Assembly (NCBI GenBank): GCA_021799495.1 | Contig: JAJZAI010000036.1 | Coordinates: 1 to 37,274 of the forward strand | DNA: 37,274 nucleotides | Source: Deltaproteobacteria bacterium | Lineage (GTDB): Bacteria; Desulfobacterota; Binatia; Binatales; Binataceae | Reading direction: 5' to 3' | Shown here: piece after piece, positions 13,669 through 28,554 of the stretch | How positions within the stretch are numbered: the stretch's first letter is position 1 | Layout: each line of letters opens with the position of its first letter | Notes under the pieces: model-generated | The model's input: only the letters and a program-made list of their open reading frames with translations | Databases searched by the model: none | What the model was told of the DNA's origin: nothing | Position numbers and translations under genes: made by a program

Positions 13669-15771
13669 ATGGCAGTCGAAAATCCCGAGCGTTTGAGGAC
13701 TATCGCAATCGTCGGCCAAGGCGGCGCCGGCAAATCGCAGCTCGCCGAGGCGATGCTGTACACGGCCGGCGCGGTCAAAAGCCTCGGGCGTCCCGATGAT
13801 GGCAGCTCGAGCCTCGATTTCGAACCCGAAGAATTATCGCGTCATATCACGATTAGCTCCGCTTTCCACCATCTAAGCTGGAAAAAGACCGAAGTCATCC
13901 TGGCCAACACTCCCGGCTACGCCGCCTTCCTGCCCGAGACTTTCGCGACGCTGCGCGCGGTTGACGCGGCGGTCGTCGTGATCAGTCCCGGCGGCGATCT
14001 GAAGGTTGAGGCGCAGAAGATTTTCGACGAGCTTCGTAATTTGGAATTGCCGCGAATCGCCTTTGTTTCCCGGCTGGATCGGGAGCGAACCAGTTTCGCG
14101 GCGTCGCTTGCCGACCTTGAAAAAGCGCTCGGCGCCAAGCCGCTGGCGCTCACGCTTCCGATCGGCGAGGAGGCGGGCTTCAACGGCGTAATCGATCTGC
14201 TGGCTATGAAATCGCTCGTTTATGCCGACGCCAGCGGCAAACCGCGCGAAGAAGAGCTTGCAGGCGAATTGAAATCGCGCGCCGACGAGGCTCGGATGCG
14301 GCTGATGGAGGCGGTCGCGGAGACGGACGACGCGCTGCTGGAAAAGTATCTCGAACAAGGTTCGCTCGCCGATGACGAACTGCGCGCAGCGCTGCGTAAT
14401 GCGATAATCTCCGGACGCCTGACGCCCGTGATGGCCGGCTCAGGCGCGAAAAATATCGGCATAGGGCCTCTTCTGGACGCCGTCGCGGCGCTGCTGCCCG
14501 CGCCCAAAGAGCGCCCGGCGCATCGCGGTACGGGACCGTCCAATGGCGCCACAATCGAGCGCCAGCACGATCCGGCGGCGCCATTTTCGGCCCACGTCTT
14601 CAAGACGATTATCGATCCCTTCGCCGGCAAGCTCTCGATTATGCGGGTGGTTTCGGGACACGTCGCCACGGACGCGCACGTGCTCAATTCCACGCGCGGC
14701 GCCAAGGAGCATTTCGGCCATCTGTTGCGGCTGGAAGGGCGTAAACAGGCGCCTATCAACGCCGCCGAAGCGGGCGAGATCATCGCCGTCGCCAAGCTCA
14801 AGGAAACTACCACCGGCGACACGCTGTGCGACGAAAAAGCGGTCGTGATCTATCCAGCGCGGGAAAAACCCACGCCCGTGATTTCCTTCGCGATTCGGCC
14901 GAAAACCCGCGCCGATGAAGAGAAATCTTCGATCGCGCTGCAGCGGCTGGTGGAAGAAGACCCGGCTCTGGAGACCCATCGCGACTCCCAGACGCACGAG
15001 ATTATCCTCTCCGGCACCGGCCAGATGCATATCGAGGTCACGGTCGAAAAGCTCAAGCGCAAATTTAATGTGGAGGTTGAACTTCAGGCGCCGAAAGTAC
15101 CGTACCTCGAAACGATCAAGGGGCGCGCCGAAGCGCAGGGCAAGTACAAGCGTCAATCTGGCGGACGTGGCCAGTACGGCGATTGCTGGCTGCGCATCGA
15201 GCCGCGGCCGCGCGCGGAAGGATTCGAATTCGCCGATGAGATCGTCGGCGGATCGATACCGCGCCAGTTTATTCCTTCGGTCGAAAAGGGCGTACGCAAC
15301 ACGCTCGCCGAGGGCTTTATCGCCGGCTACCCGATGGTTGACGTCAAGGTCACGGTGTACGACGGCAGCTTCCACGAGGTCGATTCCTCGGACATGGCGT
15401 TTCAGATCGCCGCGTCGATGGGACTCAAAAACGCGCTCGAAAAGGCGAAGCCGATTCTGCTCGAACCGATCATGGCGGTCGACGTCACCTGTCCCGACGA
15501 ATGCATGGGCGACGTGATCGGCGATCTCAACTCGCGCCGCGGGCGCGTGCTCGGGATGGACAGCAAGGGCGGCGGGCAGGTGATCAAGGCGCTGGCGCCG
15601 ATGGCCGAAATTCTCAAATACGCGCCGGACCTGCGCTCGCTCACGTCCGGGCGCGGCGCCTTCGAGGTCCGGTTCCATCATTACGACGAAGTGCCGGCCC
15701 CGATCGCCGAAAAAATTATCAAGGAGACGCGCGAGGCGCAGGCGAACGCCAAATCGCACGCTCACGCCTGA
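13669..15771 (+). CDS. EF-G-like translation factor (FusA paralogue) with degenerate G motifs
   Basis: A 700-aa five-domain EF-G homologue; GGAGAGG precedes the ATG. Domains II to V look complete: HVFKTIIDPFAGKLSIMRV, SGTGQMHIEVTVEKL, KYKRQSGGRGQYGDCWL, GLKNALEKAKPILLEPIM and SRRGRVLGMDSKGGGQVIKA. The G domain is unusual. P-loop GQGGAGKS (16-23) is normal enough, but G3 reads Asn80-Thr-Pro-Gly-Tyr84 instead of DTPGH, and G4 reads Ser134-Arg-Leu-Asp137 instead of NKxD. Tyr for the catalytic His is common in the EF-G-like branch as I recall; Asn in G3 and Ser-Arg in G4 are less expected. Likely a ribosome-associated factor distinct from housekeeping EF-G; nucleotide preference is uncertain. Confidence 0.88.
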   Translation: MAVENPERLRTIAIVGQGGAGKSQLAEAMLYTAGAVKSLGRPDDGSSSLDFEPEELSRHITISSAFHHLSWKKTEVILANTPGYAAFLPETFATLRAVDAAVVVISPGGDLKVEAQKIFDELRNLELPRIAFVSRLDRERTSFAASLADLEKALGAKPLALTLPIGEEAGFNGVIDLLAMKSLVYADASGKPREEELAGELKSRADEARMRLMEAVAETDDALLEKYLEQGSLADDELRAALRNAIISGRLTPVMAGSGAKNIGIGPLLDAVAALLPAPKERPAHRGTGPSNGATIERQHDPAAPFSAHVFKTIIDPFAGKLSIMRVVSGHVATDAHVLNSTRGAKEHFGHLLRLEGRKQAPINAAEAGEIIAVAKLKETTTGDTLCDEKAVVIYPAREKPTPVISFAIRPKTRADEEKSSIALQRLVEEDPALETHRDSQTHEIILSGTGQMHIEVTVEKLKRKFNVEVELQAPKVPYLETIKGRAEAQGKYKRQSGGRGQYGDCWLRIEPRPRAEGFEFADEIVGGSIPRQFIPSVEKGVRNTLAEGFIAGYPMVDVKVTVYDGSFHEVDSSDMAFQIAASMGLKNALEKAKPILLEPIMAVDVTCPDECMGDVIGDLNSRRGRVLGMDSKGGGQVIKALAPMAEILKYAPDLRSLTSGRGAFEVRFHHYDEVPAPIAEKIIKETREAQANAKSHAHA

Positions 15772-15779
15772 GCGGCTCC

Positions 15780-15799
15780 CGGCCGGTCGCGCCCGGCCG
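15780..15799 (+). terminator. Hairpin after the EF-G-like gene
   Basis: A perfect 7-bp stem, CGGCCGG with CCGGCCG, separated by 6 bases, begins 9 bases after the EF-G-like stop. No T-run follows, so it is a weak terminator or only an mRNA-end hairpin. Confidence 0.3.
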
Positions 15800-15843
15800 T
15801 CCGGACTGATACGATTTTCCATGGCGCGGCGCGCCGCTTCGCG

Positions 15844-16065
15844 ATGGCGTCGTTGGGAAAATCGATCGTGCTGCTGGGAGTGCTGCTGACCGCCATCGGA
15901 TTGGCGCTATGGATGGCGCCGTCGGCGCGATGGCTGGGGCGGATCGGCCGCCTGCCCGGCGACATTTACGTGCGCCGCGGCGATTTTACTTTCTACTTCC
16001 CGCTCGCGACCTCGATTATCATCAGTATCGTGCTGACTATTCTGTTCGCGTTGATGAGGCGTTAG
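15844..16065 (+). CDS. DUF2905 small membrane protein
   Basis: A 73-aa protein with two hydrophobic helices (about 5-26 and 51-70) around a conserved loop. The loop GRIGRLPGDIYVRRGDFTFYFPLATSI is the family signature split over residues 31-57. Function of the family is unknown; it is expected in the inner membrane. It ends 5 bases before the NtrY-like kinase start, so the two are probably co-transcribed and perhaps coupled. Confidence 0.88.
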   Translation: MASLGKSIVLLGVLLTAIGLALWMAPSARWLGRIGRLPGDIYVRRGDFTFYFPLATSIIISIVLTILFALMRR

Positions 16066-16070
16066 GGCGC

Positions 16071-18290
16071 ATGGCCGATCGCGCCGACAACGCTCCCAGC
16101 GCCGCGGAAATAAAGCGCCGCCGGCGCGAGCTGATCGCGGTGGGAATCGCCGCCGCGACGCTCTGCGCCTTCGTCCTTGCGCAAACCACGCTGCCGCCGC
16201 TCAGGTCGCATACCTCGCTGGTCTCGAACCTGGTCGTAATTCTGCTGTTCGATCTGAGCTTCCTGCTGCTCGGCCTGATGCTGGTGCTGGTCGGGCGGAA
16301 CCTGGCCAAGACTTTTTTCGAGCGCGGCCGCGGACTGATCGGATCGAAGCTGCAGGCGCGGCTGGTGTTCGGCTTTATCGCCGTCGCGCTGGTGCCGAGC
16401 GCGTTCCTGCTTTACGTCGCCGGCGCCTTCCTGCACGCCGATATCGATAGCTGGTTCAATCCCGAATACCAGCAGGTGCTCGACGATTCGCTTGAGATCG
16501 CGAAAGTTTACTATCTCAATTCCGCCAACAACACCGCTCATTTCGCGCGCGTGCTGGCCGAAAAGATCGCGGAACATCAACTGCTCGATCCGGCGAATCG
16601 CGTCAAGCTGCGCCAGATGCTCAGAAAGTCCCAGCAGGAATACAATCTCGGCACGATCGAGATATTTTCCGCCAGGCACAGCCTGATGATGGTGGCGCTC
16701 AGTCCGCGCACGCCCACGGGGATCGGGGTCGGCCCGGATTCGCCGATGGTCGCAGGGACGCTGGCCGGCCGCGCGATAACGCGCACGGATCGGATGGGCA
16801 AGGCGGACGTGATTCGCGGCAGCGCGCCGATCTATTCGTCGCTCGATTCGGACAGCGTGACCGGCGCGCTCGTAATCGATTACTACATCCCGAAAAGCCT
16901 TGCCGATCGCGCCGCCGGCATCTCGCGCTCGGTCGAGGAATATTTTCAGCTCCGCATACTGCATCAGCCGATCATGCACAGCTATATTCTTGCGCTCGTG
17001 CTGATTGGCCTTGCGGTCGTGCTGCTGGCGAGCTGGTTTGGAATTTATCTGGCGCGCGGAATCACGGCGCCGATCGCGATGCTGGCCGAGGGCACGCAGG
17101 CGGTCGCCGGGGGAAATCTGAATTTCGAGATTACCGAAGTCCGCGACGACGAAATCGGCCGGCTGGTCGAATCGTTCAACCGGATGACCGCCGATTTGCG
17201 CGCCTCGCGCGCCGAACTCGAGCGCCGCCGCCGCTACACCGAGACCCTGCTGCGCAACGTTTCGGCCGGGGTGGTCGGACTCGACCGCGGCGGCGTGGTG
17301 ACGGCGATCAATCCCTGCGCCGAACGGCTGCTGGGCTTGCGCGCGGCGGACGTGCAGGGGCGGCGTTACGGCGAAACCTTCCCGCTGCCGCTGGCGCGCG
17401 CGCTCGACGACGCGCTGGCGCCGGTTTCCCGGCCGCACGAAGCGCCGGCGTCGCTGAAATTCGACGCCGGCGGCGCCGAAACCGAACTCATGATGACGGC
17501 GAGCCCGCTCGGCGACGAATCCGGCGAATTGGGCGCGGTGCTGTTTTTCGAGGATGTTAGCCAGATCGCGAAAGTCGAACGGATGGAAGCGTGGCGCGAG
17601 GTCGCGCGGCGCATCGCGCATGAGATCAAGAATCCGCTGACCCCGATTCAGCTTTCCGCCGAGCGGCTGCGGCGCCAGTTCGCGCGCGCCGAAGGCGCCG
17701 ACGCGCGCCTGCTGGACGAATGCACGCACGTGATCATCGGCGAGGTCGAGGACCTCAAGCGCCTCGTCAACGAATTCTCGGCCTTCGCCCGGATGCCGCA
17801 TCTGAATCCCGTGCCCGGCGATCTGAACGCGCTGGTCGATGAGGCGGTCGCGAATTTCCGCGAAGCCCATCCGGAAGTCGAATTCGCGCTCAGCCTCGCG
17901 CCCGCGCTGCCGCGCGTGGCGATCGATCGCGAGGCGCTGAAGCGCGCGGTCGTCAATCTGCTCGACAACGGCGTGGCCGCCAGCATCGCGAGTTCCAACG
18001 GCCAGCGCCCGCGAATCGAGGCGCGCACGGCGGTCGATTACCAGACCGGCGTGGTCACGATGGAGATATCGGATAACGGGCCGGGCATCGATCCGCGCCT
18101 GCGCCAGCGCATCTTCGAACCCTACTTCTCGACCAAAAAAGGCGGCACCGGACTCGGCCTCGCGATCGTCGCATCGATCGTGACGGACCATCACGGATTC
18201 GTCAGGGTGCGCGACAACAAGCCGCGCGGAAGTAGATTTATCGTCGAATTTCCGGTAAAAGATCAGGTGTTTCCCCGAACTGATGCGTAG
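16071..18290 (+). CDS. NtrY-like transmembrane sensor histidine kinase
   Basis: 739 aa from ATG 16071. Helices at about 21-40, 52-76 and 95-118 precede an extracytoplasmic sensor region, then a further helix (HSYILALVLIGLAVVLLASW). A HAMP domain (RGITAPIAMLAEGTQAVAGG), a PAS domain (YTETLLRNVSAGVVGLDRGG) and HisKA with RRIAHEIKNPLTPIQLSAERL follow; phospho-acceptor His is about 517. The ATPase domain has an N box (LLDNGVAAS), DNGPGID, EPYFSTKKGGTGLGLAIV. The H-box and architecture match NtrY. Its partner should be NtrX, but the next gene, 105 bases on, has an NtrX-like receiver joined to LpxC. No sigma-54 activator is present here. Confidence 0.92.
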   Translation: MADRADNAPSAAEIKRRRRELIAVGIAAATLCAFVLAQTTLPPLRSHTSLVSNLVVILLFDLSFLLLGLMLVLVGRNLAKTFFERGRGLIGSKLQARLVFGFIAVALVPSAFLLYVAGAFLHADIDSWFNPEYQQVLDDSLEIAKVYYLNSANNTAHFARVLAEKIAEHQLLDPANRVKLRQMLRKSQQEYNLGTIEIFSARHSLMMVALSPRTPTGIGVGPDSPMVAGTLAGRAITRTDRMGKADVIRGSAPIYSSLDSDSVTGALVIDYYIPKSLADRAAGISRSVEEYFQLRILHQPIMHSYILALVLIGLAVVLLASWFGIYLARGITAPIAMLAEGTQAVAGGNLNFEITEVRDDEIGRLVESFNRMTADLRASRAELERRRRYTETLLRNVSAGVVGLDRGGVVTAINPCAERLLGLRAADVQGRRYGETFPLPLARALDDALAPVSRPHEAPASLKFDAGGAETELMMTASPLGDESGELGAVLFFEDVSQIAKVERMEAWREVARRIAHEIKNPLTPIQLSAERLRRQFARAEGADARLLDECTHVIIGEVEDLKRLVNEFSAFARMPHLNPVPGDLNALVDEAVANFREAHPEVEFALSLAPALPRVAIDREALKRAVVNLLDNGVAASIASSNGQRPRIEARTAVDYQTGVVTMEISDNGPGIDPRLRQRIFEPYFSTKKGGTGLGLAIVASIVTDHHGFVRVRDNKPRGSRFIVEFPVKDQVFPRTDA

Positions 18291-18395
18291 CGGCGAAGAT
18301 GCTTTCGGATCGTTCCTGACGGCGGGACGAAATCCGCGCGCTTTGCTCCGGTCCGCGCCGCGCGGCGGCGATTTCAAATCGATAATCGAGGCCAA

Positions 18396-19667
18396 TTGAA
18401 CAACGTGAATGCGACCGTGCTGGTGGTGGATGACGAGGAGCGGATCCGGTCTTCACTGCGCGGCATCCTCAACGACGAAGGTTTCCGCGTGCTCGACACC
18501 GGCGACGCGCCGGGCGTGATGGAGTTGATCGAACGGGAGCGTCCCGAGCTGGTTTTGCTCGACGTGTGGATGCCCGAACTCGACGGAATCGAGCTGTTGC
18601 GGCGGATCAAGGCGGAACTGCCGGCGACGCGCGTGATCATGATTTCGGGCCACGCCAATATTCAAAACGCAGTCGCCGCGACGCGGCTGGGCGCGGAAGA
18701 TTTTCTCGAAAAGCCGTTTTCCGTCGACGGATTGCTCGCGGCGATCGGGCGCGTGATGGCGGGCGATTCCGGCCGCGCCGGCACGCCGGGCGCCGCCGCC
18801 TGCGCGGCCCAGCTTCCCGCAGCCGGGCGCGCGCCGCGCGGGGCGCTTGCGCGTCCGCAGCGCACCGTGGCGGAATCGTTGGTGCTGGCCGGCCAGGGGC
18901 TCCATTCGGGATTCAAGACCGGCGTGATTCTGCATCCGGCGCCCGCCGATTCCGGAATCGTTTTTTCCTCGGTGGCCGACCAATCGGAAATTCCGGCGCG
19001 GCTGGAGAACGTGACCGAGACCGGCTACAACACCACGCTGAGCGGCGGCGGCCATTCGATTCGCACGGTCGAGCATCTGATGTCCGCGCTGCACGGACTC
19101 GGCGTCACCAACCTGCTCGTCAAGACCGACGACGAAGTGCCGGCGCTCGACGGCTCGGCGCTCGAATTCTGCCGGCATCTGCGTGCCGCCGGAATCGTCG
19201 AGCAGGACGCCGAGATCGAGCCGATCGCGGTCGCCAAGCCGATTCAGATCGGCGAGGGAAGCGAATTTATCCGGATTGAGCCGGCGCGCCGGCTGGCGAT
19301 CGATTACACGCTGGAATATCCGGCCCCGATCGGCCGCCAGCAGGTCCACTTCGAGCTCGATTCGCCCGAGGATTACGTTCGCGAGATAGCGCCTGCGCGA
19401 ACTTTCGGATTCGTGCGCGAATTCCGCAAGCTCGCCGAGATGGGCTTGGCGAGCGGCGGCCGGCTCGACAATCTGATCCTCGTCGACGACGAAAAGGTGG
19501 TTAATACCGCCCTGCGGTTTCCCGACGAATTCGCGCGGCACAAGGCGCTCGATCTGATCGGCGATCTCTACCTGCTCGGCCGCCCGATCGTCGGCCATAT
19601 CGTCGCCTCCAAGACGGGACATTCGGATAATCTCGCGTTGCTGCGCGCGATCGCGGCGGCGCTCTGA
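18396..19667 (+). CDS. lpxC: Response-regulator receiver fused to LpxC (UDP-3-O-acyl-GlcNAc deacetylase)
   Basis: One uninterrupted 423-codon frame joins two intact domains. Residues 5-123 are an NtrX-like CheY receiver: Asp12, Asp13, phospho-acceptor Asp56 (LLDVWMPELDG), Ser84 (ISGHAN) and Lys106 (EKPF) are all present. A roughly 30-residue Ala/Gly/Arg-rich linker leads to LpxC at about 154-423. It keeps QGLHSG, TVEHLMSALHGLGV, HKALDLIGDLYLLG and SKTGHSDN, hence zinc ligands His227, His382 and Asp386, and catalytic Glu226 and His409. LpxC commits precursor to lipid A synthesis. The AAA+ and DNA-binding parts of NtrX are absent. TTG 18396 has GAGG four bases upstream; GTG 18405 is an alternative. 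An internal start near residues 120-121 (GTG-ATG) could give LpxC alone. Confidence 0.93.
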   Translation: MNNVNATVLVVDDEERIRSSLRGILNDEGFRVLDTGDAPGVMELIERERPELVLLDVWMPELDGIELLRRIKAELPATRVIMISGHANIQNAVAATRLGAEDFLEKPFSVDGLLAAIGRVMAGDSGRAGTPGAAACAAQLPAAGRAPRGALARPQRTVAESLVLAGQGLHSGFKTGVILHPAPADSGIVFSSVADQSEIPARLENVTETGYNTTLSGGGHSIRTVEHLMSALHGLGVTNLLVKTDDEVPALDGSALEFCRHLRAAGIVEQDAEIEPIAVAKPIQIGEGSEFIRIEPARRLAIDYTLEYPAPIGRQQVHFELDSPEDYVREIAPARTFGFVREFRKLAEMGLASGGRLDNLILVDDEKVVNTALRFPDEFARHKALDLIGDLYLLGRPIVGHIVASKTGHSDNLALLRAIAAAL

Positions 19668-19736
19668 CGGCGGCGCGCGCCGTTTCCGATCGCGCGCTTC
19701 GTTGGCGATAGCGTCCCGCAAATAATTTTTCGAAGG

Positions 19737-19805
19737 TGGATTGCCGGGTCTGGGCCCGGCAATGACGAAAAAAGCCGTCATGCCCGGACTTGATCCGGGC
19801 ATCCA
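19737..19805. repeat. Compound palindromic repeat (REP/MITE-like)
   Basis: A 69-base element between lpxC and the reductase gene, built as a large imperfect palindrome. TGGA at 19737 faces TCCA at 19802-19805. Inside are three hairpins: TTGCCGGG/CCCGGCAA (19741-19762), ATGACG/CGTCAT (19762-19781) and TGCCCGGA/TCCGGGCA (19781-19801). Segments such as GTCATGCCCGG resemble palindromic repeats I know to be abundant in many proteobacterial genomes. It encodes nothing; it could fold in RNA as an attenuating or stabilising structure at the end of the lpxC transcript. Confidence 0.8.
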
Positions 19806-19862
19806 GGCAGATCCCGGCCGAGGCACGATGTATAAACTTGTTTTCGGGACGTCACGTTAGCG

Positions 19863-20597
19863 ATGGTTCTGCGGGACAAAGCGGCGCTGGTCACCGGCGC
19901 GGGCGGGCGCGTCGGCCGGGCGATCGCGCTCGCGCTGGCCGAACGCGGCGCGGCGGTCGCGTTGCATTGCCGCAATTCCCGCGCCGAGGCGGAATCTGCA
20001 GCCTCCGAGATTGAAGCGCGGGGAGGGCGCGCGCGCGTGCTGGCGGCGGACCTTGAGGCGATCGCCGCGGCCGAGGGACTGGTCGCAACGACGATCGGCG
20101 CGTTCGGGCGAATCGACGTGCTGATCAATTCCGCCGCGGTTTTCACGCGCGGCGCGCTGGAGGAGATTTCCGAGCGCGCCTGGGACGAGACCTTCGCGGT
20201 GAATCTGAAGGCGCCGTTTTTTCTCGCGCGCGCGGCGGGCGCCGCGATGCGCCGCCAGGGGGCGGGCAAGATACTCAATCTGAGCGATATAGCGGCGCGC
20301 CGGCCGTTTTTGAACTATATTCCTTATTCGATCGCCAAGGCCGGTGTGGAGGCGATGACGATCGCGCTGGCGCGCGCGTTCGCGCCCGAGGTGCAGGTCA
20401 ACGCGCTCGCGCTCGGAATCGTCGCACCGCCGGAGGATTTCGATCGCGCCGAACTCGAACGGCTGGTTCGCCGCATTCCGGCCGGCAGGATCGGAGCGCC
20501 GGAGGACGCCGCGCGCGCGGCGATCTTCCTCTGCGAAGCGGCCGACTTCGCCACCGGCGCGACGATCACGCTCGACGGCGGGCGTCTGATAGGTTAA
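19863..20597 (+). CDS. Short-chain dehydrogenase/reductase, pteridine-reductase-like
   Basis: A 244-aa classical SDR. Cofactor loop TGAGGRVGRAIA (11-22), NSAA in place of NNAG, catalytic Ser141, Tyr155 and Lys159 (YSIAK) and the C-terminal TGATITLDGG are in order. The style of the N-terminal loop, ALHCRNS and LNLSDIAARRPFLNYIPYSIAKAG is closer to pteridine reductases (FolM/PTR1 type) than to FabG, so NADPH-dependent reduction of a pteridine is a reasonable guess. The queC gene follows 20 bases later; both can handle pterin-like compounds, but the link is inference. No ribosome site is evident. Confidence 0.85.
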   Translation: MVLRDKAALVTGAGGRVGRAIALALAERGAAVALHCRNSRAEAESAASEIEARGGRARVLAADLEAIAAAEGLVATTIGAFGRIDVLINSAAVFTRGALEEISERAWDETFAVNLKAPFFLARAAGAAMRRQGAGKILNLSDIAARRPFLNYIPYSIAKAGVEAMTIALARAFAPEVQVNALALGIVAPPEDFDRAELERLVRRIPAGRIGAPEDAARAAIFLCEAADFATGATITLDGGRLIG

Positions 20598-22328: not shown

Positions 22329-23312
22329 ATGTTTTCATCGATCGACGACGTTATCGAGCGTTTCGCCGAAAACCGCTATATCGCCAGCCGGCGAATCGCC
22401 ACCGTGATCTATCTCGCCAGTTCGCTCCAGAAGCCGATTTTGGTCGAAGGGCCGGCCGGCGTCGGCAAGACCGATTTGGCCAAGGTGCTGGCCGCCGCGC
22501 TCGGCGAAGAGATGATCCGCCTGCAGTGCTACGAAGGTCTTGATGAGGGCAAGGCGCTCTACGAATGGGAATACGCCAAGCAGCTCCTCTATACCCAGAT
22601 CCTCAAAGATAAAATCGGCGAAGTATTGACCGGCACCAAGGGGCTGGCGCAGGCCGTCGATCGGATCGCGAGCGAGGACGAAGTTTTTTTCTCCGAGCGC
22701 TTTGTGCTGCCGCGCCCGCTGATGAAGGCGATTACCTCGGAGAAGCAGATCGTTCTGCTGATCGACGAAATCGACAAGGCCGACGCGGAATTCGAGGCCT
22801 TCCTGCTCGAACTGCTGTCGGATTTCCAGGTCACCGTGCCGGAAATCGGGACCTTCAAGGCCAAGCAGATTCCGCTCGTGATCCTGACTTCGAACAACGC
22901 GCGCGAGATGTCCGACGCGCTCAAGCGCCGCTGCCTGCATCTGTATATCGATTTTCCTACGCGCGAACAGGAACTCGCGATCATCCGGCTCAAGGCGCCC
23001 GAAGCGGCCGAAAAGCTCGCCGACGAGGTCGTCAACGTGGTGCAATCGCTGCGCAAGCTCGACCTCAAAAAAACGCCCGGAATCAGCGAGACGCTCGACT
23101 GGGTGAAGGCGTTGACGCTGCTCAACGTGCAGAGCCTCGACAACGCGCTGGTGGACGAGACGCTCGACACGATCGTCAAGTACGAGGGCGACGTGCGCAA
23201 GGCGCAGGAGGAGCTCAAGGAGTACTTGCGCAAGGTGCGCACGCGCCGCGGCGGCGCCGACGCCTCGGGTTCGGGCAGCGGCGGCGGCGCCGACAAGGAT
23301 CTTCTCAACTAG
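22329..23312 (+). CDS. MoxR-family AAA+ ATPase
   Basis: A 327-aa chaperone-like ATPase; GAGGAGG lies 4 bases before the ATG. Walker A is GPAGVGKT (41-48), Walker B LLIDEID has Asp146 and Glu147, and sensor 1 is LTSNNAREMSDALKRRC. The C-terminal Ala/Gly/Ser-rich tail is probably disordered. MoxR proteins usually work with a VWA-domain protein to mature or insert metal cofactors; the VWA partner follows 98 bases downstream. The pair resembles CoxD/CoxE of carbon monoxide dehydrogenase maturation, but no Cox structural genes are in view, so the client is unknown. Confidence 0.93.
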   Translation: MFSSIDDVIERFAENRYIASRRIATVIYLASSLQKPILVEGPAGVGKTDLAKVLAAALGEEMIRLQCYEGLDEGKALYEWEYAKQLLYTQILKDKIGEVLTGTKGLAQAVDRIASEDEVFFSERFVLPRPLMKAITSEKQIVLLIDEIDKADAEFEAFLLELLSDFQVTVPEIGTFKAKQIPLVILTSNNAREMSDALKRRCLHLYIDFPTREQELAIIRLKAPEAAEKLADEVVNVVQSLRKLDLKKTPGISETLDWVKALTLLNVQSLDNALVDETLDTIVKYEGDVRKAQEELKEYLRKVRTRRGGADASGSGSGGGADKDLLN

Positions 23313-23410
23313 GGCGGCTGCAATTCGCCGGGCGTCAGCGGAAGTTCCGGAACGGCCGGCGCCTTCGCCGTATCGCGCGGCGCGGACGGCGGGGCGGGGC
23401 GGTAATAAAG

Positions 23411-24823
23411 ATGGAAGACAAACTGGTCGAATTCGCCAACCTGCTGCGGCAGAACGGCGTCCGCGTCTCGCTCGCCGAAACGCTCGACGCGGTGGCCGCG
23501 GCCGAAGTTTCGGGCCTCGGCGATCGCGATTCATTCCGCTCGGCGCTGCGCGCCACGATGATCAAGCGGGCGAGCGAACTGCCGGTCTTCGAGCAGCTCT
23601 TCGACGTCTATTTCTCCGGACTCGGCGAAATCATCAAGGGCGCGAGCAAGGAAGTGCAGGACGCGCTCTCGATGTCCGACAAGGACTTCCAGCAGTTCCT
23701 CGACGACGTCGATCAGCTTCTCAAGGAGCACGCCGACGAACTTTCCGAACTCGCCAAGCAATTGCTGCGCAACGAGAACGGACAGCTCGAAAAAATGATG
23801 CGCGAGGCCGCCCGCGCGGTCCGGATGCAGGGAATCCAGCGCACGATCGAGGAGAACTACTTCGCCCGCGCGCTCGCCCGCGCGCTCGGACTCGACAAGA
23901 TCGAGCAGGAGATCAAGGAGCTGCGCGAGCAGCTCGAAAAGCTCGAGCTCGGCTCCGCCTTCCGCGCCAAGATGGAGGAGTATCTCGACCGCCGGCTCAA
24001 GATGCTCGAGGACATCATCCGCAAGTACGTCCGCCAGGAGCGCGAGAAGCGCGACCTGAAGTCGCGCGAAGAGGCGCGAATGAACCAGCTTGCGGACAAG
24101 AGCTTCTACTACCTGAGCGAAGAGGAAATGACGAAGATGCGCGAGGCGATCACGCGCCTCGCCCAGCGGCTCAAGAACATTATCGCGGTCCGGCGCAAAC
24201 GGAAGAAAAAGGGCCGCTTTGATATCAAGCGCACGCTGCGCAAGAACATCGAATACGGCGGCGTGCCGTTCAAGCTGAAATTCGATCAGCGCAAGAAGGA
24301 AAAGCCGCAGATCCTCGTGATGTGCGACGTATCGGACTCCGTGCGCAACGCCTCGCGCTTCATGCTGCAGTTCGTGTACTCGCTGCAAGACCTCTATTCG
24401 CGCGTGCGCAGCTTCGTCTTCGTCGCCGATATCGGCGAAGTGACCGAAAGCTTCCGCACCAACGATATCAAGGACGCGCTCGACGTTGCGCTCAAAGGCG
24501 ACGTGATCAACGTATACGCGCACTCCGATTTCGGCCGCTCGTTCCGCAATTTCATCAGCGACCATATCGGCGCCGTGAACAAGCGCACCACCGTGATCAT
24601 TCTCGGCGACGCCCGCAACAATTATAATCTGCCGCACGATTGGTGCCTGCGCGAGATTCGCCAGCGCGCGCGCCGTATAATCTGGTTAAATCCGGAAAGC
24701 CGCAACACGTGGGGATTCGGCGACAGCGAGATGGAGCGGTACCAGGTTCATTGCGACCTGGTGGAGGAATGCCGCAATCTGAACCAGCTCTATCGGGTCA
24801 TCGATCAGCTTGTTCCGCGTTGA
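23411..24823 (+). CDS. VWA-domain protein, CoxE-like partner of MoxR
   Basis: A 470-aa cytoplasmic protein. The first 200 residues are helical and strongly charged, including coiled-coil segments (KIEQEIKELREQLEKLELG, EEYLDRRLKMLEDIIRKYV). A basic stretch RRKRKKKGRFDIKRTLRKN precedes a C-terminal von Willebrand A domain whose MIDAS motif begins at Asp306 (CDVSDSV, a DxSxS site). VVIILGDARNNYN supplies the later metal-binding Asp. The order MoxR then VWA is typical of ATPase-insertase pairs. The start ATG lies after a weak purine stretch. Confidence 0.9.
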   Translation: MEDKLVEFANLLRQNGVRVSLAETLDAVAAAEVSGLGDRDSFRSALRATMIKRASELPVFEQLFDVYFSGLGEIIKGASKEVQDALSMSDKDFQQFLDDVDQLLKEHADELSELAKQLLRNENGQLEKMMREAARAVRMQGIQRTIEENYFARALARALGLDKIEQEIKELREQLEKLELGSAFRAKMEEYLDRRLKMLEDIIRKYVRQEREKRDLKSREEARMNQLADKSFYYLSEEEMTKMREAITRLAQRLKNIIAVRRKRKKKGRFDIKRTLRKNIEYGGVPFKLKFDQRKKEKPQILVMCDVSDSVRNASRFMLQFVYSLQDLYSRVRSFVFVADIGEVTESFRTNDIKDALDVALKGDVINVYAHSDFGRSFRNFISDHIGAVNKRTTVIILGDARNNYNLPHDWCLREIRQRARRIIWLNPESRNTWGFGDSEMERYQVHCDLVEECRNLNQLYRVIDQLVPR

Positions 24824-27597: not shown

Positions 27598-28554
27598 ATG
27601 GTGACCTACGAAGAGTTCGAGAAGCGGTTCCCGACTGACGACGCCTGCCGCGAGTTCATCGTCCAGCAGCGCTGGCCGCACGGCGTCCATTGTCCGCGCT
27701 GCCAGTCGGGCGAGAAAATCTATGCGCTCAAGGCGCGCCCGTTCCATTGGGTCTGCAAGAACGCGAATTGCGGCGGACGGCCCGGCTATCGTTTCTCGGT
27801 GACTACCGGAACGATCTTCATGGACACCAAGGTCTCGCTCAAAATCTGGTTCAAGATCGGCTATCTGATGCTGACCAGCAAGAAAGGCATCAGTTCGCTG
27901 CAAGTCCGCCGCGTCATCTTCGGCGAAGATTCCGGAACCGACTGGCGTACCGCCTGGTACATCTGTCATCGCTGGCGCGCGGCCATGCGCGGCGACGCCT
28001 TCGACCTGAGCGGCACCGGTCCGGTCGAAATGGACGAAACCTACATCGGCGGCAAGGATCGTAACCGCCATTGGGGCAAGAAAAGCGCCCAGCGCCGCAA
28101 AGCCGCCGGGCCGCGGACCGGCTTGGAGAAGGTCGGCGAGGGCGTCGGTTACGGCAAGGTCGGCGTGATCGGCGCCATCGAGCGCAAGGGCAACGTGGTC
28201 GCCCGCGTCATTGGCGACATGGACGCGCGGACATTGGGATCGTTCGCTCGCAACGTCGCCAACGACAAGGTTTCGCTGGTCGTTACCGATGAGAATCCGG
28301 CCTACAGCCACGCCTTCGGCAATCACACCAAGCACGCGACCGTCAACCATGGGCGCGGCGAATACGTGCGCGGGAACATCCACACCAACAACATCGAGTC
28401 GTTCTGGTCGCTGCTGAAGCGCGGCGTGATCGGAACCTACCACAAGGTCTCGAAGGATTATTTGCCGCTCTATCTGAACGAGTTCTCGTTTCGCCATAAC
28501 AATCGCCACAATCCCAACGCCTTTGCCGACCTGATTACGACGTGCGGTAACTAG
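27598..28554 (+). CDS. IS1595-family transposase (zinc ribbon plus DDE domain)
   Basis: 318 aa and apparently intact. The N-terminal zinc ribbon uses Cys32, Cys35, Cys53 and Cys58 (HCPRC, WVCKNANC). A helix-turn-helix-like region follows (KKGISSLQVRRVIFGED). The ISXO2-type catalytic domain carries Asp146 (EMDETYIGGK), Asp231 (VVTDENPAY) and Glu267 (HTNNIESFWSLLKRG), with the typical ending YLNEFSFRHNNRHN. It catalyses cut or copy transposition at the flanking inverted repeats. Codon use resembles the host, so residence may be long or the donor similar. No clear ribosome site; GTG 27601 is an alternative start. Confidence 0.96.
   Translation: MVTYEEFEKRFPTDDACREFIVQQRWPHGVHCPRCQSGEKIYALKARPFHWVCKNANCGGRPGYRFSVTTGTIFMDTKVSLKIWFKIGYLMLTSKKGISSLQVRRVIFGEDSGTDWRTAWYICHRWRAAMRGDAFDLSGTGPVEMDETYIGGKDRNRHWGKKSAQRRKAAGPRTGLEKVGEGVGYGKVGVIGAIERKGNVVARVIGDMDARTLGSFARNVANDKVSLVVTDENPAYSHAFGNHTKHATVNHGRGEYVRGNIHTNNIESFWSLLKRGVIGTYHKVSKDYLPLYLNEFSFRHNNRHNPNAFADLITTCGN

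Follow-up and report, generated by a model that had tools for sequence, protein, structure and literature searches.

The window, by which we mean the whole 37,274-nt stretch of DNA analysed here (contig JAJZAI010000036.1 of assembly GCA_021799495.1, from a bacterium of the family Binataceae), carries at positions 18396-19667 a single reading frame in which a receiver domain, a linker and a complete LpxC follow one another, and directly upstream of it lies the gene for an NtrY-like sensor histidine kinase, with 105 bases between the two frames. The features of the locus are the following:

15909..18290, forward strand: NtrY-like membrane sensor histidine kinase, 793 aa, the probable cognate kinase (Pfam NtrY_N, HAMP, PAS, HisKA and HATPase_c)
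18396..19667, forward strand: receiver-LpxC fusion protein, 423 aa, one ORF with a TTG start (a GTG at 18405 is possible)
18417..18746, forward strand: NtrX-type receiver domain, residues 8-117 (Pfam PF00072, Response_reg; NCBIfam NtrX; PDB 4d6x)
18561-18563, forward strand: codon of the predicted phospho-acceptor Asp56, a conserved position
18756..18851, forward strand: variable linker, about residues 121-152 (dN/dS, low AlphaFold pLDDT)
18858..19655, forward strand: LpxC deacetylase domain, residues 155-420, without a C-terminal tail (PF03331 and TIGR00325, Foldseek)

Pfam places Response_reg at residues 8-117 (105.8 bits, cut-off 30.2) and LpxC at residues 155-420 (303.3 bits, cut-off 27) of the one frame, which bears out the original prediction of an in-frame receiver-LpxC protein of 423 codons. 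The TIGR00325 model for LpxC is passed at 255.9 bits against a curated cut-off of 187.25, and Foldseek lists 50 PDB matches, 49 with LpxC titles and one titled as a LapB-LpxC complex. Response-regulator receivers are defined by an acidic pair, a phospho-accepting Asp, a Ser or Thr, and a Lys, and the window protein has all of these as D12, D13, D56, S84 and K106; E226, H227, H382, D386 and H409, which we take to be the zinc ligands and catalytic residues of LpxC, are all present as well, and every residue that had been named beforehand for phosphorylation, zinc binding and catalysis is thereby found in the sequence. Profile and active-site residues identify the protein as an LpxC, with predicted deacetylase activity on UDP-3-O-acyl-GlcNAc. 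Pfam finds receiver and LpxC only, with no AAA+ or HTH domain in the window protein, in agreement with the claim that the DNA-binding and AAA+ parts of NtrX are missing. Relatives (e.g., L034 and L038) have a start-type codon aligned with the GTG at 18405, and a search for sigma70-like promoters in window positions 15600-19900 returned none (shuffled sequences gave a mean of 0.7).

The kinase adjoining the fusion gene is NtrY-like by its Pfam domains, and it stands well apart from other kinases of the window genome, with a match of 1738 bits to itself and 122 bits to the next kinase. This arrangement suggests that it is the cognate partner of the fused receiver. An elongation factor G-like protein is encoded directly upstream of the NtrY gene (13669-15771); farther along the window are a frame for an AAA ATPase followed by a CoxE-type VWA protein (22329-24823) and a transposase frame of the IS1595 family (ISXO2-like; 27598-28554).

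The fused gene is the sole lpxC found in the window genome, a 3.43-Mb assembly that is 98.19% complete with 0% contamination. A PF03331 search of this genome returns one LpxC match, the fused one, in keeping with the prediction that there is no separate lpxC, and a second stand-alone lpxC was accordingly rejected for this genome; both kinds do occur together in two other genomes, G257 and G300 (L216 and L217), where a solo lpxC lies upstream of an NtrY without NtrX and a very divergent receiver-LpxC is encoded elsewhere in the genome. Together with the one match to lpxB, the one LpxC match indicates that the lipid A pathway is probably present. The companion claim, that no separate ntrX exists, stands only in part: eleven sigma54 activators were found in the window genome with E < 1e-60, none of which exceeds the curated NtrX cut-off (best 398.7 against 600 bits), yet this cut-off is strict, being passed in none of the eight genomes tested, including G331, whose NtrX adjoins NtrY, so that the lack of a protein above it is not by itself proof of absence. 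In six of these eleven activators the frame also encodes a receiver, and for five of the six there is a kinase match in the same locus.

The receiver itself resembles that of NtrX. Among curated receiver families, NtrX scores best against the window protein (116.4 bits, ahead of FixJ at 97 and NtrC at 92.6), though the match covers the receiver only and falls short of the 600-bit cut-off of the NtrX model (NF051870), and the best PDB receiver match is 4d6x, which we take to be Brucella NtrX. A receiver tree was built from 90 rows, comprising 55 receiver-LpxC proteins (hand-picked out of 85), 6 NtrX-LpxC proteins, 16 NtrY-adjacent NtrX proteins and 13 other receivers, nine of these last from the window's own genome. 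Receiver-LpxC, NtrX-LpxC and NtrY-adjacent NtrX fall into one group (SH-aLRT 99) in this tree, which has few columns and weak inner forks, and only one of the 13 other receivers, the long-branch L229 of G345, falls inside the NtrX group. By profile, PDB match and tree, the fused receiver is derived from NtrX, and the NtrX likeness first read from the letters of the gene is upheld.

The fusion is class-wide and old. Exactly one LpxC match was obtained in 55 of 57 genomes sampled from the window's genus, family and class (its own genome included), the two genomes without a match being 53% and 92% complete. All 55 loci were inspected, and in every one of them the receiver lies in the same frame as LpxC (a contig end truncates L019 and L264). 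All 54 class genomes for which upstream DNA is available encode an NtrY-like kinase directly upstream on the same strand; at one of these loci, L020, the kinase frame overlaps the start of the receiver by 25 bases. Intact fusions were also found at 95, 94 and 89% identity in MAGs from other projects, some named Candidatus Binataceae and some being the same genomes as in the class sample. Because the fusion is intact both in these MAGs and in 55/55 class genomes, chance or a frame error is excluded, and with it the frameshift or assembly merger that had been named as a possible refutation. The search for receiver-LpxC proteins in relatives that had been proposed thus found them throughout the class.

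Conservation of individual residues was followed in 91 distinct fused proteins, 85 of them receiver-LpxC and six with AAA+. Leaving out LpxC matches with fewer than 240 aligned residues (among them L043, L051 and L054) gave 118 distinct sequences, including four Bacteroidota rows that are not counted among the 23 solo proteins of the phylum. D12 and D13 are kept in 89 of the 91 fused proteins, the remaining two not covering the site; D56 is likewise kept in 89, the two exceptions being a gap and a T (the latter in L053, which matches the window protein only from residue 53 on), and K106 in all 91. The five LpxC residues are invariant in fused (91/91) and solo (23/23) proteins alike. When five pairs with relatives sharing 79-95% protein identity were compared (NG86), dN/dS came to 0.000-0.078 in the receiver, 0.064-0.160 in LpxC and 0.42-1.36 over the 32 codons of the linker, and every pair has a lower value for the receiver than for the enzyme. 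The receiver joined to LpxC has been kept by selection. An AlphaFold2 model made from 22 aligned sequences has a mean pLDDT of 82.8 and a pTM of 0.82, with pLDDT below 50 at linker residues 124-149, and because of this low-confidence linker it gives no receiver-LpxC interface.

These data bear on the plainest alternative, namely that the gene is an ordinary passive fusion, or an artefact, without regulatory meaning. Adjacent genes can fuse, and several relatives do have lpxC next to ntrY(X); the artefact part of this explanation is excluded, however, and an in-frame receiver in 55/55 class genomes with an LpxC match, a dN/dS lower in the receiver than in the enzyme in 5/5 pairs and a preserved phospho-site leave the passive fusion hardly credible.

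Outside the class, the distribution and INTERMEDIATES were examined in a phylum sample of 395 genomes, at least 91 of which have fused or fused-like rows among the matches listed. Among these same matches, 53 genomes have an alignment to the window protein that begins at the receiver (in two it is cut short), 18 have frames of 448-490 aa that align by LpxC only, and 20 have frames of 600 aa or more that also align by LpxC only. Nine of the 18 shorter frames were read and all nine contain a receiver (partial in G137), and all 12 of the longer frames that were read have the order REC-AAA+-LpxC, as judged by Pfam on three and by alignment on the rest. A receiver has therefore been seen in the fusion in at least 74 genomes, with 17 more inferred by frame length, among the matches listed.

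The long forms are NtrX-LpxC intermediates. L128 aligns to the NtrX model over positions 3-452 of 452 (290 bits, cut-off 600), and the AAA+ domain that is missing from the window protein is present in degenerate form in its relatives L126-L130 and L145, two of which (L127 and L145) lack most of the HTH region as well. Six aligned NtrX-LpxC proteins keep Walker A and have lost both the Walker B glutamate and GAFTGA, the sigma54-contact loop, which is absent from all 12 intermediates read (the six aligned and six more). NtrY is encoded upstream of six of these 12 (L128, L129 and L265-L268), and two of the other six, L269 and L270, have little upstream DNA. In the LpxC tree, which was made by a quick method and carries long-branch warnings, the 91 fused proteins all group together as a single clade (SH-aLRT 99, branch 0.82), separate from the 23 solo LpxCs of the same phylum. 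The series of forms suggests that NtrX-LpxC came first and that AAA+ was lost later, an order that the tree, on which the AAA+ form needs three changes, does not prove.

Some individual loci deserve separate mention. A receiver-LpxC on a MAG labelled Spirochaetes (L055:1-1287) sits on a very long branch inside the window's class, through transfer or misbinning, and the single-contig genome G436 has two receiver-LpxC copies (L136 and L137). Eight long stop-to-stop frames (L106, L110, L125, L152, L158, L159, L163 and L165) were considered as kinase-receiver-LpxC triple fusions and rejected: Pfam on L152, L159, L163 and L165 finds receiver and LpxC only, and six of the eight have the kinase in a frame of its own, which ends 18-75 nt before the receiver. 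The other two, L125 and L152, belong to one genome (G229), where the same strand showed no NtrY-like kinase.

The intermediates also speak to the idea that the receiver signals elsewhere, with LpxC as a passive carrier and the receiver serving NtrY at the membrane as a phosphate sink, localiser or protein-contact domain. NtrY does look like a membrane kinase, and the linker is unconserved, so the two domains may act independently; we nevertheless regard this idea as improbable, since AAA+ is degenerate or absent while the linkage to LpxC is kept in one clade, which points to LpxC as the output that remains.

The genomes of the phylum that have a solo lpxC show how the genes are arranged where there is no fusion. 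Twenty such genomes were hand-picked among high-ranking stand-alone LpxC matches, not drawn at random, and all 20 have NtrY-like kinases. NtrY has a stand-alone NtrX as its neighbour in 15 of 19 (the locus of the twentieth is cut), on the opposite strand in G318 and split over two frames in G077, and the other four have NtrY without NtrX beside it. In nine of the 20, lpxC precedes ntrY on the same strand by no more than about 1.2 kb, and a tenth (G399) has the two on one contig, no more than about 1.6 kb apart. The three genes lpxC, ntrY and ntrX therefore seem to have been neighbours for a long time. A good match to NtrY, at 298 bits or above, was found in 25 of the 27 fusion genomes searched outside the window's class, and beside NtrY in these 25 stand a free NtrX in one (G331), an NtrX-LpxC in two and neither in 22; G331 has NtrY and NtrX together and a separate receiver-LpxC. 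The difference in stand-alone NtrX beside NtrY, 15/19 solo against 1/25 fusion genomes, gives a Fisher p of 2.3e-7 with relatedness ignored. Where NtrX joined LpxC, the free NtrX has usually gone from the side of NtrY. The receiver-LpxC gene is mostly without an adjoining NtrY outside the class, and for this reason the partnership with NtrY can be assigned there by elimination only.

Fused and solo enzymes differ at the C-terminus. After the aligned LpxC core there are 0-22 residues in all 91 fused proteins (none in the window protein) and 27-39 in all 23 solo LpxCs of the phylum (L181-L200, L132, L217 and L144). These solo tails may serve as protease tags in the phylum; 15 of the 23 end in Ala. 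As all fused LpxCs belong to a single clade, the loss of the tail could have gone together with the fusion in one correlated event, and the comparison is not an independent test. The level of E. coli LpxC is controlled by proteolysis with a C-terminal degron, according to the sections of a recent review drawn on here (PMC12444477), and the receiver might correspondingly control the stability of LpxC and not its catalysis, with phosphorylation exposing the protein to a protease or hiding it, in the manner of an adaptor, in place of a lost C-terminal tag. The missing tail of the fused forms fits such control, which we judge unlikely though worth keeping in view: no candidate protease or adaptor was identified, FtsH control of LpxC is described in those sections as largely restricted to Enterobacteriaceae (PMC12444477), and the solo tails, even those ending in Ala, are putative degrons only.

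The reading that we favour, and consider probable, is that LpxC, the committed enzyme of lipid A synthesis, is under direct two-component control by NtrY through a fused receiver that once belonged to NtrX. The membrane-bound NtrY would autophosphorylate on its HisKA histidine upon an envelope or redox cue and pass the phosphate to Asp56 of the receiver, and NtrY may also remove it. The phosphorylation state of the receiver would alter LpxC output via the flexible linker, and the physical coupling could take the form of docking on the catalytic domain or of receiver-driven dimerisation. NtrYX represses lpxC in Rhodobacter and Caulobacter, and because of these transcriptional effects we lean, by analogy and only slightly, towards phosphorylation lowering rather than raising lipid A flux. 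As to origin, an NtrX encoded near lpxC and ntrY would have been fused to the N-terminus of LpxC, after which its sigma54-activating AAA+ and HTH parts would have decayed and been lost in many lineages, leaving the receiver. A wider version of this reading is held with distinctly more reserve, the balance being just in its favour: control of lipid A synthesis may have passed from a transcription factor into the enzyme in the whole class and in several lineages related to it, as NtrX was joined to LpxC, gave up its DNA-directed functions and turned into a phosphorylation switch replacing tail-dependent turnover, by which a membrane sensor sets outer-membrane synthesis, with the intermediates recording the conversion.

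The closest known relationships are those of NtrY-NtrX in alphaproteobacteria, where an NtrY-like kinase and an NtrX-type receiver are likewise linked to LpxC and LPS (PMC7240162; PMC12444477). Deletion of ntrYX in Rhodobacter sphaeroides raises the lpxC transcript 8.8-fold and about doubles LPS, an effect that is transcriptional and indirect, the authors having found no NtrX site upstream of lpxC in the portion of their report drawn on here (PMC7240162), and in Caulobacter crescentus NtrYX inhibits lpxC transcription (PMC12444477). There, NtrX binds DNA and lpxC is separate and indirectly regulated, whereas here the receiver is within LpxC. With the LpxC of E. coli and Pseudomonas the window protein shares its fold and active site, and post-translational control of output, established there, is predicted here; the controls described in the cited sections are FtsH-LapB proteolysis and MurA binding (PMC12444477), in contrast to an N-terminal receiver and no C-terminal tail here. 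DVU2934 of Desulfovibrio vulgaris is a response regulator with lpxC as its single target, but in the account drawn on it acts transcriptionally on a separate gene, with no fusion (PMC3333781). LpxC is also part of a fusion in Bacteroidota (LpxC-FabZ; L059-L062, 464-468 aa), where the extra part, presumably FabZ, is C-terminal and no receiver match was found in these four proteins.

On a more general plane, REC domains on standard metabolic enzymes put them under environmental control (PMC5847659), and the present protein follows the same plan of REC plus metabolic enzyme. It differs in that the enzyme is the sole LpxC found and commits the pathway, in that the receiver is derived from NtrX with intermediates surviving, and in being class-wide, as against the narrow distributions given for archaeal fusions in the part of that paper used here (PMC5847659). 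Receiver-enzyme fusions are thus an already known kind, and LpxC as the partner is the new part within the literature searched: titles and abstract openings found by literature search held no receiver-LpxC fusion, as the original prediction had supposed, though the output-domain reviews of Galperin (2006, 2010) could mention one, and the words 'fusion', 'fused' and 'response regulator' are absent from a 2025 review of lipid A regulation.

How LPS synthesis is matched to the state of the envelope is, according to the same recent review, still emerging outside E. coli and Pseudomonas (PMC12444477). With a signalling domain in cis on the committed enzyme, a single gene pair offers a defined kinase and a defined target that can be put to the test, and the intermediates provide a series for the turning of a transcription factor into the regulatory domain of an enzyme. 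Antibiotics are directed at LpxC, which lends interest to a natural regulatory surface on the enzyme. The findings suggest that the link between NtrY and lpxC extends beyond the alphaproteobacteria, and in these little-known environmental bacteria a membrane sensor could probably adjust the building of the outer membrane directly.
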